Positions 6,058 to 35,833 of a stretch of DNA of 35,833 nt are shown here, in pieces (within the stretch, counting starts at the first letter, position 1; each line of letters opens with the position of its first letter). Origin of the DNA: a virus; IMG/VR virus record IMGVR_UViG_3300034096_000045, positions 1 to 35,833 of that record, one strand, 5' to 3'. The notes below the pieces were generated by a model. The model saw only the letters and a list, made by a program, of their open reading frames with translations. It was not told the origin of the DNA and did no database searches. The position numbers were made by a program, and so were the translations under genes.

Positions 6058-6100
6058 GGTTCTCCTTAAGTGCAGGTCAGTCTAGTGAGACTGTCTGCGG

Positions 6101-8911: not shown

Positions 8912-8929
8912 GTGCAGGTCTCCTATTTC

Positions 8930-12068: not shown

Positions 12069-12110
12069 GTGCAGGCTCCTTGTTTTCTTGGGAATCTATG
12101 TCGGTGTCAA

Positions 12111-13004: not shown

Positions 13005-13577
13005 TTACGGCACAGATGTGGTGGATGCTTTGCAAACCCGCCAATTACAAGGATTCCACGGCTCGAAGCCTGAGATTCGGTACAGCACCAGCCCAGCCTT
13101 CAAGTTGGTGAGCGGGTCGAGTAGTGGTTCTTGAGTGCAGATGTTCATCTCTCGGCACACCGCAGCCCACTTGTTCCGAGACTTGTCATAGTTGACGCCG
13201 TTGATCTGCAACAAGCCTGTATCGGAACGATGGTTCCATTCGGATACACCTGTGATGTTGCAGTCTTTGTCGACGATGTCTCCACCTTTTCGGTTTGGGC
13301 AGGCTCCGCTTTCGCGTAGCACCAGTTCGGTCAATTTCGGTATCGCATGGTCAGGCCAGCCTGCTTGCTTGGCGAGTGACGGTAGCCAGGACACGTCTCC
13401 GTGGCGAAATCTGATGGGTTGGATTGGGTCGAGCCTGTCAGCGACTGGTGGTTGCCAGAGTGGCTGTAATGCGTTTACAGCGTCGCTGGTGCGGGCTGGT
13501 GCGGAGGCTGCCTGTGCTATGCCGAGGCTCATGGTCAGTGTGGCGAGTGTTGCCATGATTGCGGAGAGTATGCGCAT
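13005..13577 (-). CDS. secreted lysozyme/transglycosylase-like protein
   Basis: 190 residues. A signal peptide (MRILSAIMATLATLTMSLGI, cut near residue 23-26) is followed by a lysozyme-like fold: LVLRESG with probable catalytic Glu89, NHRSDTGLLQINGVNYDKSR (GLLQIN 121-126), then the helix LTNLKAGLVLYRISGFEPWN. Six cysteines (93, 106, 141, 147, 177, 182) could form three disulfides, fitting an exported enzyme. It probably cleaves the glycan strand of peptidoglycan at lysis or infection. The ribosome-binding site is AAAGGA. The leader contains the anti-Shine-Dalgarno-like hairpin described below. Confidence 0.85.
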   Translation of the reverse strand: MRILSAIMATLATLTMSLGIAQAASAPARTSDAVNALQPLWQPPVADRLDPIQPIRFRHGDVSWLPSLAKQAGWPDHAIPKLTELVLRESGACPNRKGGDIVDKDCNITGVSEWNHRSDTGLLQINGVNYDKSRNKWAAVCREMNICTQEPLLDPLTNLKAGLVLYRISGFEPWNPCNWRVCKASTTSVP

Positions 13578-13607
13578 CGTGGTCCTTTCGATATGTGCAG
13601 GTCATGA

Positions 13608-13637
13608 CGCAACTCAGAAGGAGGTGACTGAGTTGCG
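13608..13637 (-). ncRNA. hairpin displaying an anti-Shine-Dalgarno loop
   Basis: In the minus-strand transcript CGCAACTCAG (13637-13628) pairs perfectly with CTGAGTTGCG (13617-13608). The 10-nt loop between them, TCACCTCCTT, is identical to the conserved 3' end of bacterial 16S rRNA that recognises ribosome-binding sites. It lies 30 nt before the lysozyme-like start codon, in a 129-bp gap. A TAGGGT -10-like box at 13654-13649 would start an RNA a few nucleotides before the stem. It is either a regulatory leader element or a separate small RNA; function is inferred. Confidence 0.5.
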
Positions 13638-13648
13638 GTGCTACATCA

Positions 13649-13654
13649 ACCCTA
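13649..13654 (-). promoter_or_regulatory. -10-like element upstream of the anti-SD hairpin
   Basis: TAGGGT on the minus strand fits the actinobacterial TANNNT -10 consensus. TTGAAA at 13674-13669 lies 14 bp further upstream, too close for a standard -35 box. Flanking GGTGC and GCACC could instead pair, making this part of a longer RNA structure; the two readings are alternatives. Confidence 0.3.
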
Positions 13655-13706
13655 GTGGGGAGCGCACCTTTCAACCTTAGCCGATGGCACCCGATTTTCG
13701 CTAGTT

Positions 13707-13970
13707 TTAGCGGTCTTGGGAATTAATTTCTAGATCCATCAACACTTTGATACTGACAACCATCTTCACAGGTATGTGCAGAACGTGGTCAATGTTGTCT
13801 TCGTTGCGTGACTGGTAGATGGTGACGTGGTCAGGTTTACCGCCATCGGATGTGGCGAGCAGGAAGCCGACTGTTTGGACGATGGCTGGGTCGAGGTCTA
13901 GGTCTTTGATATTGACCCATGATTCGGATCCGCTGTGCGCATCATGCCAGGTGACGAGTACGGCGGTCAC
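13707..13970 (-). CDS. small phage protein of unknown function (87 aa)
   Basis: 87 residues starting at GTG 13970, which overlaps the upstream stop (GTGA). Motifs TAVLVTWHDAHSGSESWVNI and HVLHIPVKMVVSIKVL recall a small beta-rich protein type seen next to lysis genes in many phages: a WxDAH start and an IPxxMV end around a short ATSDGG turn. Its role is unknown. The anti-SD hairpin and probable promoter follow its stop. Confidence 0.65.
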   Translation of the reverse strand: MTAVLVTWHDAHSGSESWVNIKDLDLDPAIVQTVGFLLATSDGGKPDHVTIYQSRNEDNIDHVLHIPVKMVVSIKVLMDLEINSQDR

Positions 13971-34057: not shown

Positions 34058-34441
34058 CTAACTAGCGACGGTCAAAGATGCAGACAGATTGCCAGATGAA
34101 ATTGTGTAAGTGTCACCAGCTGTATAAGCGTTGCCTGTGATCGTCCCAGAGAACAAGAAGTTACCTGCCGAGATGTTGTCCCAAGCGGTGAAGTGTGTTG
34201 CGTCTTGCGAACCTGCGATGTTCGTCCACGAGATATCTGCATCCGATGCGATAGCACCAGTCGAAGCCGCACCGAACGAAACAGATTTGCGTGTCGTCTC
34301 AGTCGCAGCGTTCGATGTTCCTGCCGCGCCTGGATCGCCGACATGAAGTTTGATGTAGACCTGTGCGACGGCGTAAGAAGTGTTGTTGCCGAGCGCGTCG
34401 AGGAACGAGTTGCAAAGATAAGCCGATAAACCTGTAGCCAT
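34058..34441 (-). CDS. virion protein of the head/fibre type
   Basis: 127 residues. ATGLSAYLCNSFLDALGNNT, then YIKLHVGDPGAAGTSNAATE and FGAASTGAIASDADISWTNI match a widespread phage protein recognised by L-H-x-G-D-P-G-x-x-G-T-x-N-x-A and a final SGNLSASLTVAS. Often found with portal or tail fibre genes, likely a head or fibre accessory. Its ATG overlaps the portal stop (TAATG). Confidence 0.75.
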   Translation of the reverse strand: MATGLSAYLCNSFLDALGNNTSYAVAQVYIKLHVGDPGAAGTSNAATETTRKSVSFGAASTGAIASDADISWTNIAGSQDATHFTAWDNISAGNFLFSGTITGNAYTAGDTYTISSGNLSASLTVAS

Positions 34442-35833
34442 TACTCTTCAACCCTTTCGGTGATAGTCAAGATTCTACCTTCGGCATCGCGTTCAACTGT
34501 GCGAACAGTCGGCCTATTCTCTGGCACGTTCACACGCACCACAGTCTCAGGCACGTTGATGATCGGTGCAGCGACACTCACTTGTGCTGGTGGAACATTG
34601 ACAACCATTTCAGGCATCGTCACATTCACGTCACGCTGATTCACATCGTAGGTCGGTGCTGGTTCTGTTACCTGTTGCAACAAGACTGGTGCGACACCTG
34701 TGTGTGTGATCGGATCAATGTCGAGTGCTTTCAATACTGCGGCAGGTTCGAAACCTGCGTTGATAAGACGTTGAGCCATCATTGTTTTGCGGTCAAGTTC
34801 GGTGAGTCCTGCTGCACCAAGATCGACGTTCGCAAGTGGCACACGGTAAGTATCGCCGCCGTCAGCCGGTCGTAGGTCTTCAAATCGGCGAACATCGTTG
34901 ATTGATAACCAGCCTGCTTGTAGTCCTGATGAATAGCCTGCGACTCGTGAACCGAAGTCGCCGCGCATCAAACCATCAAGGTTGAACTTCAAGAACGCAC
35001 CACGGCCATCAATCAGTCTTGAATATCCATCCTCAATCTTGGTGACGTATGGTCGGAGTGTGTGCATCACAAAGTGAATGCCGTTCATTTCAACCGAAGC
35101 GTATGCTTGCGCACCTGACTGAATCACACCAGCCATCGAAGGCGGCACACGGAACGCACGAAGAATCTCTTCGACTGCGAACTGTCGTGATTGCAGGAAC
35201 TGTGAGTCGTCTGGTGCGACCGAAGTTGTCGTGTATTTCGCACCACCGAACAGAATGCCTGGGCGGTGTGCGCGACGCAAACCTTTGTGACCTTCTTCGA
35301 ATCCGTCAACAAGCGACTTTGCTTGTTCGCGGGTCAGGTTGCCTGGGAACTCGATGATGCCTGAAGTGTGCGAACCTTGACCGAAGAACCTCGCAGCAAA
35401 CTCTTCAAGAGCTTTCGACAATCCGAGGTTCTCTTTGATTAGTTCGATGCGTGAACGGCCACGAAGATCGCCAGGTAGACGCAACTCGGACAGATGAATC
35501 ATGTCCTCATGCTGGATGATGTCACGGTTGTCAAAGACGTAGACGATTCGGCGTGACTCGTCGCGTTTCACTTCAACTTTCAACGGATTCAAAACTGACA
35601 AACCTGCGACACCTTGATTGTCGCGGATGATACGAGTGAACGAGTTACCGTTCAACAACATCGAAACAAGTACCTGTTGGAAGTGGTCGGTGCGTGACAC
35701 ACCGACTTCGGGCATGTCGAGCCATTCTGGTCGTGGTCGGAATGGTCGGCGATCACCGTCGACACGGATGAACACATCGACTGGCAGAGTTGAGATAGAG
35801 TCTGCGATTAGTCGGACACACGCATACACGGTT
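34441..35833 (-). CDS. portal protein, main part (5' end at window start)
   Basis: This holds the body of the HK97-type portal. YACVRLIADSISTLPVDVFI, then LNGNSFTRIIRDNQGVAGLS, MIHLSELRLPGDLRGRSRIE, GSHTSGIIEFPGNLTREQAK and GILFGGAKYTTTSVAPDDSQ with EEILRAFRVPPSMAGV are in family order. A flexible tail of VNVPE-type repeats (AAPIINVPETVVRVNVPENR) ends the protein. The real start is ATG 337-335 in the left part of the window; 35634-35833 duplicates that end. Full length about 509 residues. Confidence 0.94.
   Translation of the reverse strand, partial: TVYACVRLIADSISTLPVDVFIRVDGDRRPFRPRPEWLDMPEVGVSRTDHFQQVLVSMLLNGNSFTRIIRDNQGVAGLSVLNPLKVEVKRDESRRIVYVFDNRDIIQHEDMIHLSELRLPGDLRGRSRIELIKENLGLSKALEEFAARFFGQGSHTSGIIEFPGNLTREQAKSLVDGFEEGHKGLRRAHRPGILFGGAKYTTTSVAPDDSQFLQSRQFAVEEILRAFRVPPSMAGVIQSGAQAYASVEMNGIHFVMHTLRPYVTKIEDGYSRLIDGRGAFLKFNLDGLMRGDFGSRVAGYSSGLQAGWLSINDVRRFEDLRPADGGDTYRVPLANVDLGAAGLTELDRKTMMAQRLINAGFEPAAVLKALDIDPITHTGVAPVLLQQVTEPAPTYDVNQRDVNVTMPEMVVNVPPAQVSVAAPIINVPETVVRVNVPENRPTVRTVERDAEGRILTITERVEE
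35634..35833. repeat. terminal direct repeat, right copy
   Basis: Identical to 1-200 except for G at 35761 instead of A at 128 (both give Val in the portal). It shows that the assembly wraps around, with a unique genome of about 35,633 bp. Confidence 0.95.

Follow-up and report, generated by a model that had tools for sequence, protein, structure and literature searches.

A phage leader hairpin whose loop equals the anti-Shine-Dalgarno end of 16S rRNA, with counterparts in related contigs and in a second phage lineage

Known RNAs with comparable loops

Leader pseudoknots and hairpins that sequester a Shine-Dalgarno (SD) sequence usually do so with sequences fitted to one particular SD. Host sRNAs already offer examples of hairpin loops carrying an anti-Shine-Dalgarno (aSD) sequence, and leader RNAs pairing with ribosome-binding sites are known from phages, c4 being one (PMC12197685). 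The former are the alpha-r14/NfeR1 ('cuckoo') sRNAs of Alphaproteobacteria, which combine an ultraconserved unpaired aSD motif with variable stems and bind translation initiation regions through their aSD seeds (PMC10746234). In c4 antisense RNA of phages P1 and P7, loops pair around the ribosome-binding site of the ant mRNA (PMC12197685). The 6C RNA of Actinobacteria consists of stem-loops with C-rich loops binding mRNAs, as described in PMC9569102 and in work cited there. The 16S rRNA tail itself reads GAUCACCUCCUUA in E. coli and GAUCACCUCCUUUCU in B. subtilis (PMC6107228).

The DNA analysed here (the window) is a viral stretch of 35,833 nucleotides. A reading of this DNA from the sequence alone had pointed out a perfect 10-bp stem with a 16S-tail loop on the minus strand, and this hairpin, P2, was confirmed at 13637-13608, which reads CGCAACUCAG UCACCUCCUU CUGAGUUGCG. 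The 10-nt loop is the core of both 16S tails given above. UCACCUCCUU occurs once in the window, and allowing one mismatch brought no second copy. Given the base composition, both strands of 35.8 kb together should contain about 0.07 exact 10-mers, and since a flush stem of 9-10 bp multiplies this value by about 4^-9, a chance origin of P2 is excluded. That P2 is real was settled by its conservation in relatives (see below).

Like the alpha-r14 RNAs, the family of the window displayed a constant aSD loop (21 aligned leaders, with one C-to-U) on five stem versions. Unlike alpha-r14, whose members are free-standing host trans-acting sRNAs with three hairpins and CCUCCUCCC, it presented one hairpin with the exact 16S tail in a phage leader; a CCUCCUCCC-type repeat over three hairpins was not encountered in the window, where the UCACCUCCUU loop is single. 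P2 also resembles c4, both being phage RNAs in which a loop faces a ribosome-binding site, but complementarity in c4 is target-specific whereas that of P2 is the generic 16S tail. Resemblance to 6C lies in the idea of an mRNA-binding C-rich stem-loop; 6C is a host gene with poly-C loops and an Rfam-modelled family. No Rfam family matched the element (13480-13760) at the gathering threshold or at E values up to 10, and this includes c4 antisense RNA and the 6C covariance model. Likewise, no phage hairpin carrying the 16S tail was found in the literature searched, which lay mostly outside subscription journals.

The leader and its conservation among relatives

P2 is located 31 nt upstream of the start of a gene for a secreted lysozyme-like protein without Pfam or PHROG match (Table 1). 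This gene is followed by a 60-aa ORF, WhiB and a RusA-like gene, and is apparently the first of an early operon. The hairpin is intergenic; on its other side the late/lysis region, with a VanY-type enzyme, a holin-like gene and an 87-aa ORF, comes to its end. All credible genes around it are on the minus strand. A collection of isolated phages contained neither DNA nor protein relatives of the window phage. Positions 2-337 and 34441-35832 of the window encode the same stretch of a portal-like protein, which indicates that the contig ends overlap and that the genome is probably circularly permuted or terminally redundant.

Table 1. Position and characteristics of the features discussed, in window coordinates or, for the second lineage, in those of each contig
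Feature	Position	Strand	Remarks
CTAAGGTTGA, candidate -10 promoter element (TAAGGT)	13671..13680	-	inferred
P1 hairpin GGUGC...GCACC	13637..13668	-	directly upstream of P2; covaries in relatives
CTAGGGTTGA, second candidate -10 copy (TAGGGT), inside P1	13646..13655	-	not at this place in L151
P2 hairpin, stem CGCAACTCAG/CTGAGTTGCG	13608..13637	-	pairing read in the window; five stem versions in relatives
P2 stem arms	13608-13617 and 13628-13637	-	flank loop 13618-13627
P2 loop UCACCUCCUU	13618..13627	-	identical to the 16S rRNA aSD decamer
CCUGCAC linker motif between P2 and SD	13595..13601	-	conserved
CGAAAGGACCACG, SD region of the lysozyme-like gene	13578..13590	-	AAGGA at 13583-13587
Secreted lysozyme-like protein, 190 aa	13005..13577	-	function by resemblance only
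aSD-loop hairpin in L354, L357, L359, L362, L363, L368, L369, L370 and L376	~1435-1503 in each		before the SD of the PHROG 11299 gene

The relatives were gathered from viral contigs in three ways, by querying with the lysozyme-like protein, by two DNA patterns and by a protein alignment. P2 was found at the same position in 31 further contigs, where the following gene, if present, always was the lysozyme-like one; a pattern search with the linker and SD added only the contig of L151 to the pattern matches. Five versions of the stem, differing in sequence or length, were encountered (CGCAACTCAG, CGCAACCAG, CGCAACCAAG, CGCATCAAG and CGCAACCAC), every one of them perfectly paired, and in L151 the loop-closing pair was flipped from G-C to C-G. 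Mapped on the lysozyme-like gene tree, stem types switched at least nine times; recombination may inflate this figure, for which the five types set a minimum of four. The eight alignable pairs were 100% paired with two compensatory changes, a score as high being reached by one of 500 shuffles. The loop was invariant across the 21 aligned leaders except for a C-to-U change at loop position 2 in L026, at an evolutionary distance where synonymous sites are saturated (third-position identity within conserved residues of 0.48 between the window and L151). The covarying stem, the invariant loop and the saturated synonymous sites together indicate that both loop sequence and stem pairing are under selection. 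The compensatory stem changes around an invariant CCUCC loop, which the sequence-only reading had named as the pattern to look for, were thus found, and its minus-strand hairpin stands with stem and aSD loop both selected. As the stem consisted only of Watson-Crick pairs in the window lineage, it does not discriminate between strands or types of molecule.

The remainder of the leader was less uniform. Both the -10-like TAGGGT and the GGTGC/GCACC stem noted upstream of P2 are there in the window, the latter as hairpin P1, whose outermost base, 13637, also belongs to the outermost pair of P2. P1 covaried to GUGUU/AACAC in L029, L059 and L070, was weak in L025 and was replaced by an unrelated hairpin at the same place in L151, the most divergent relative. 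CTAAGGTTGA holds a near-copy of TAGGGT, 25 nt upstream of it, and L151 displayed CTAGGGTTGA at the CTAAGGTTGA position; this upstream site is a plausible candidate for the -10 region. The interval originally assigned to the element (13600-13676) lies inside it, the whole being slightly wider (13578-13680). The self-complementary GTCATGAC was not conserved among relatives. No T-run, the signature of an intrinsic terminator, followed P2 in any member; TCATGACC, TTATTCC and similar sequences were there instead.

Conservation was high again downstream of P2, where CCUGCAC and CGAAAGGACCA were retained. The last 12 nt before the lysozyme-like start codon were 99% identical across 21 relatives, against 60-90% when 11 further genes of these phages were compared over the corresponding 12 nt, and the lysozyme-like protein was not more conserved than the products of those 11 genes. 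Hairpin and SD therefore seem to be kept together. The linker motif also occurs elsewhere: four of the five minus-strand copies of CCTGCAC in the window (13595-13601, 12069-12075, 8912-8918 and 6070-6076) stand shortly upstream of early-gene starts, and CTGCAC before the 11019-12068 gene was also kept in relatives; CCTGCAC is possibly a start-associated motif.

More distant relatives of the lysozyme-like gene were devoid of the aSD loop, and model R1 detected no element there. By eye, the leaders of L030, L034, L036, L167 and L180 seem to contain a hairpin without aSD loop and, past it, a UAUCC-type motif and then the SD. L026 and L027 displayed, far from P2, minus-strand hairpins of 9-11 bp with G-U pairs and loops containing GACCUCCG. 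A hairpin of L028 with loop CACCUCCGA, just after a lysozyme-like gene, was rejected as terminator-like, its flank being able to pair (GAGGUG/CACCUC). A scan of bacterial genomes for CAGTCACCTCCTTCTG gave 48 matches, the sole one with a long stem (L120) being inside a coding frame.

A similar design in a second phage lineage

A pattern match in an unrelated phage contig (L072) was also recorded. The scan for GGTTACCTCCTTCC yielded about 80 readable matches, of which 75 had closing stems of at most 5 bp, as by chance, and five had stems of 9-11 bp. All five were found at one place, between a tail-like gene and a PHROG 11299 gene, wherever the sequence was sufficient to tell. PHROG assigned no function to either gene; from gene order, they would be read as 'major tail protein' and 'tail assembly chaperone'. 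A family search brought together nine distinct leaders sharing the design (Table 1). Their stems were again diverse (GGGCGGUGG, GGGUGGCGG, GGGCGGCGG, GGGCAGCGG, GGGCGUUGG, GGGCAACGG and others), while their loops (UUACCUCCUU(C), CACCUCCU, UACCUCCUG, UCCACCUCCUU and UUCCUCCUUC) all hold CCUCCU. An AGGAGG SD followed 4-8 nt past the hairpin, with loop:SD pairing of -8 to -14 kcal/mol. The stem was 97.8% paired, and its covariation score was reached by none of 500 shuffles. It included G-U pairs on the mRNA strand, which makes the mRNA the most likely selected molecule. The same design is an independent acquisition in a phage group unrelated to that of the window. As aSD cores were no commoner in hairpin loops than control cores (1.39 Mb of other or random loci), the two lineages do not reflect a general background.

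Two kin of these leaders, L356 and L358 (~1416-1500), displayed a long hairpin with loop UCCUUCGUUUU. A complementarity of 11 nt links this loop to the SD region of the same leader, AAAACGAAGGG, and makes an SD-sequestering pseudoknot likely. Complementarity there reaches beyond the SD itself, compared with 5 bp in the window lineage. As in SD-sequestering leaders, access to the SD is proposed for P2 to be set by pairing within the leader; unlike in those leaders, the P2 loop is a complete 16S tail, conserved beyond pairing with its own SD. Several other close kin without aSD loop carried at the same place a small-loop hairpin and a T-run, resembling a terminator. Taken together, these leaders are most simply read as interchangeable devices at one position, all damping the downstream gene, the aSD loop doing so by SD pairing.

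Outside these families, the loop UUACCUCCUUCC was met on a perfect 14-bp stem in a single sequence (L259:1450-1500, minus strand), where the hairpin falls within the coding part of a further lysozyme-like ORF that lies upstream of WhiB.

Possible modes of action

Throttling in cis is the best supported mode of action, the main arguments being the conservation of the initiation region and the parallel in the second lineage. P1 and P2 would belong to a structured 5' leader of the likely early operon, with a probable transcription start shortly past CTAAGGTTGA. The transcript would fold into two adjacent hairpins, P1 then P2, and sequence and conservation show that P2 displays the complete aSD sequence in its loop. 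The loop may then pair with SDs on phage mRNA, at first that of the lysozyme-like gene (UCCUU:AAGGA), in a pseudoknot stacked on P2, and by competing with the 16S tail it would limit or time translation of the downstream gene. That the leader is such a cis element, its loop competing with the ribosome for SDs, appears to us about evenly balanced between true and false. At a more general level, comparison among phages speaks for an element acting locally in the leader, rather than for the broad repression or ribosome sponge that the sequence-only reading had suggested, since the initiation region is unusually conserved and the hairpin of the second lineage stands directly before a strong SD; the hairpin is probably a genuine brake on protein production.

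Some findings, pairing energies among them, weigh against the cis reading. By the c4 yardstick of a loop matching a ribosome-binding site of its own operon, the match was 5 nt long (UCCUU of the loop with AAGGA at 13583-13587), with a predicted -4.6 kcal/mol, and other genes of the phage matched more strongly (-10 to -15 kcal/mol). The 16S tail paired with the lysozyme-like SD at -9.5 kcal/mol, i.e. more strongly than the P2 loop, for which a value of -16.6 kcal/mol was predicted with an ideal SD. No evident partner within the leader was found for UCACC, the conserved 5' half of the loop. Since the loop and its own SD are both invariant, they cannot covary. The absence of the aSD loop from more distant relatives of the gene points the same way.

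Because the match between the loop and its own SD is no longer than 5 nt, an sRNA-like role in trans is the main rival, if rather doubtful: P1-P2 would be made as, or processed into, an antisense RNA whose loop binds many host SDs, phage SDs or both and stops SD-dependent translation. This would account for conservation of the whole decamer, for the affinity to an ideal SD and for the better targets among other phage genes, and the alpha-r14 sRNAs, which bear the same signature, silence mRNAs via aSD loops (PMC10746234). Yet neither a terminator nor a processing site was evident after P2, the early genes of the phage would themselves suffer, and both the conserved adjacent initiation region and the cis layout of the second lineage argue for a local role. 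A broader proposal, in which aSD-tail hairpins are recurrent, independently evolved phage RNA regulators and those of the window lineage also mask host SDs in trans early on, seems unlikely to us.

Two further roles were considered less likely than action in cis or in trans. P2 might mimic the 16S 3' end and act as a decoy for a protein or nuclease, such as the GTPase Era or a MazF-type aSD-cutting toxin. Era, an assembly GTPase, recognises GAUCACCUCC, a motif that occurs in the literature on this protein, and its contacts include GAUCACC of 16S rRNA. The invariant identity of the loop with the 16S tail over 10 nt is in line with mimicry, but the loop is devoid of the A that precedes UCACC in GAUCACC, and a hairpin loop is unlike a free 3' tail. 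An aSD-cutting toxin, MazF-mt3, was reported in actinobacteria (PMC5408214). The conserved SD and linker and the cis arrangement of the second lineage would be left unexplained, and we regard the decoy as improbable. An equally low rating was given to a palindrome acting at the DNA level (regulator site, cruciform or replication signal), whose arms would stay identical through template switching. The exclusively Watson-Crick stem of the window lineage and the frequent stem switches on the tree agree with it. A protein site would, however, keep its arms and vary its loop, and the reverse was observed; the G-U pairs on the mRNA strand of the second lineage and the identity of the loop with the aSD decamer are further arguments against it. 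Finally, a plus-strand ribosome-binding site, AAGGAGGTGA, serving an antisense peptide from a TTG start, which had been named as a possible refutation of the hairpin, is hardly credible despite ideal SD spacing (6-7 nt) and a 15-codon frame open in most members, since this frame is broken in four relatives that keep the hairpin and its loop (frameshifted in L003, interrupted by stops in L025 and L026, and replaced by other sequence in L151) and credible nearby genes are all on the minus strand.

If the cis reading is true, phages set the translation of particular genes with a loop-presented copy of the very sequence by which the ribosome recognises mRNA. Retention of the loop with rewriting of the stem in two unrelated lineages suggests a general control principle that is absent from Rfam. 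Should the hairpin act in trans, it would represent an RNA-based takeover of host translation.
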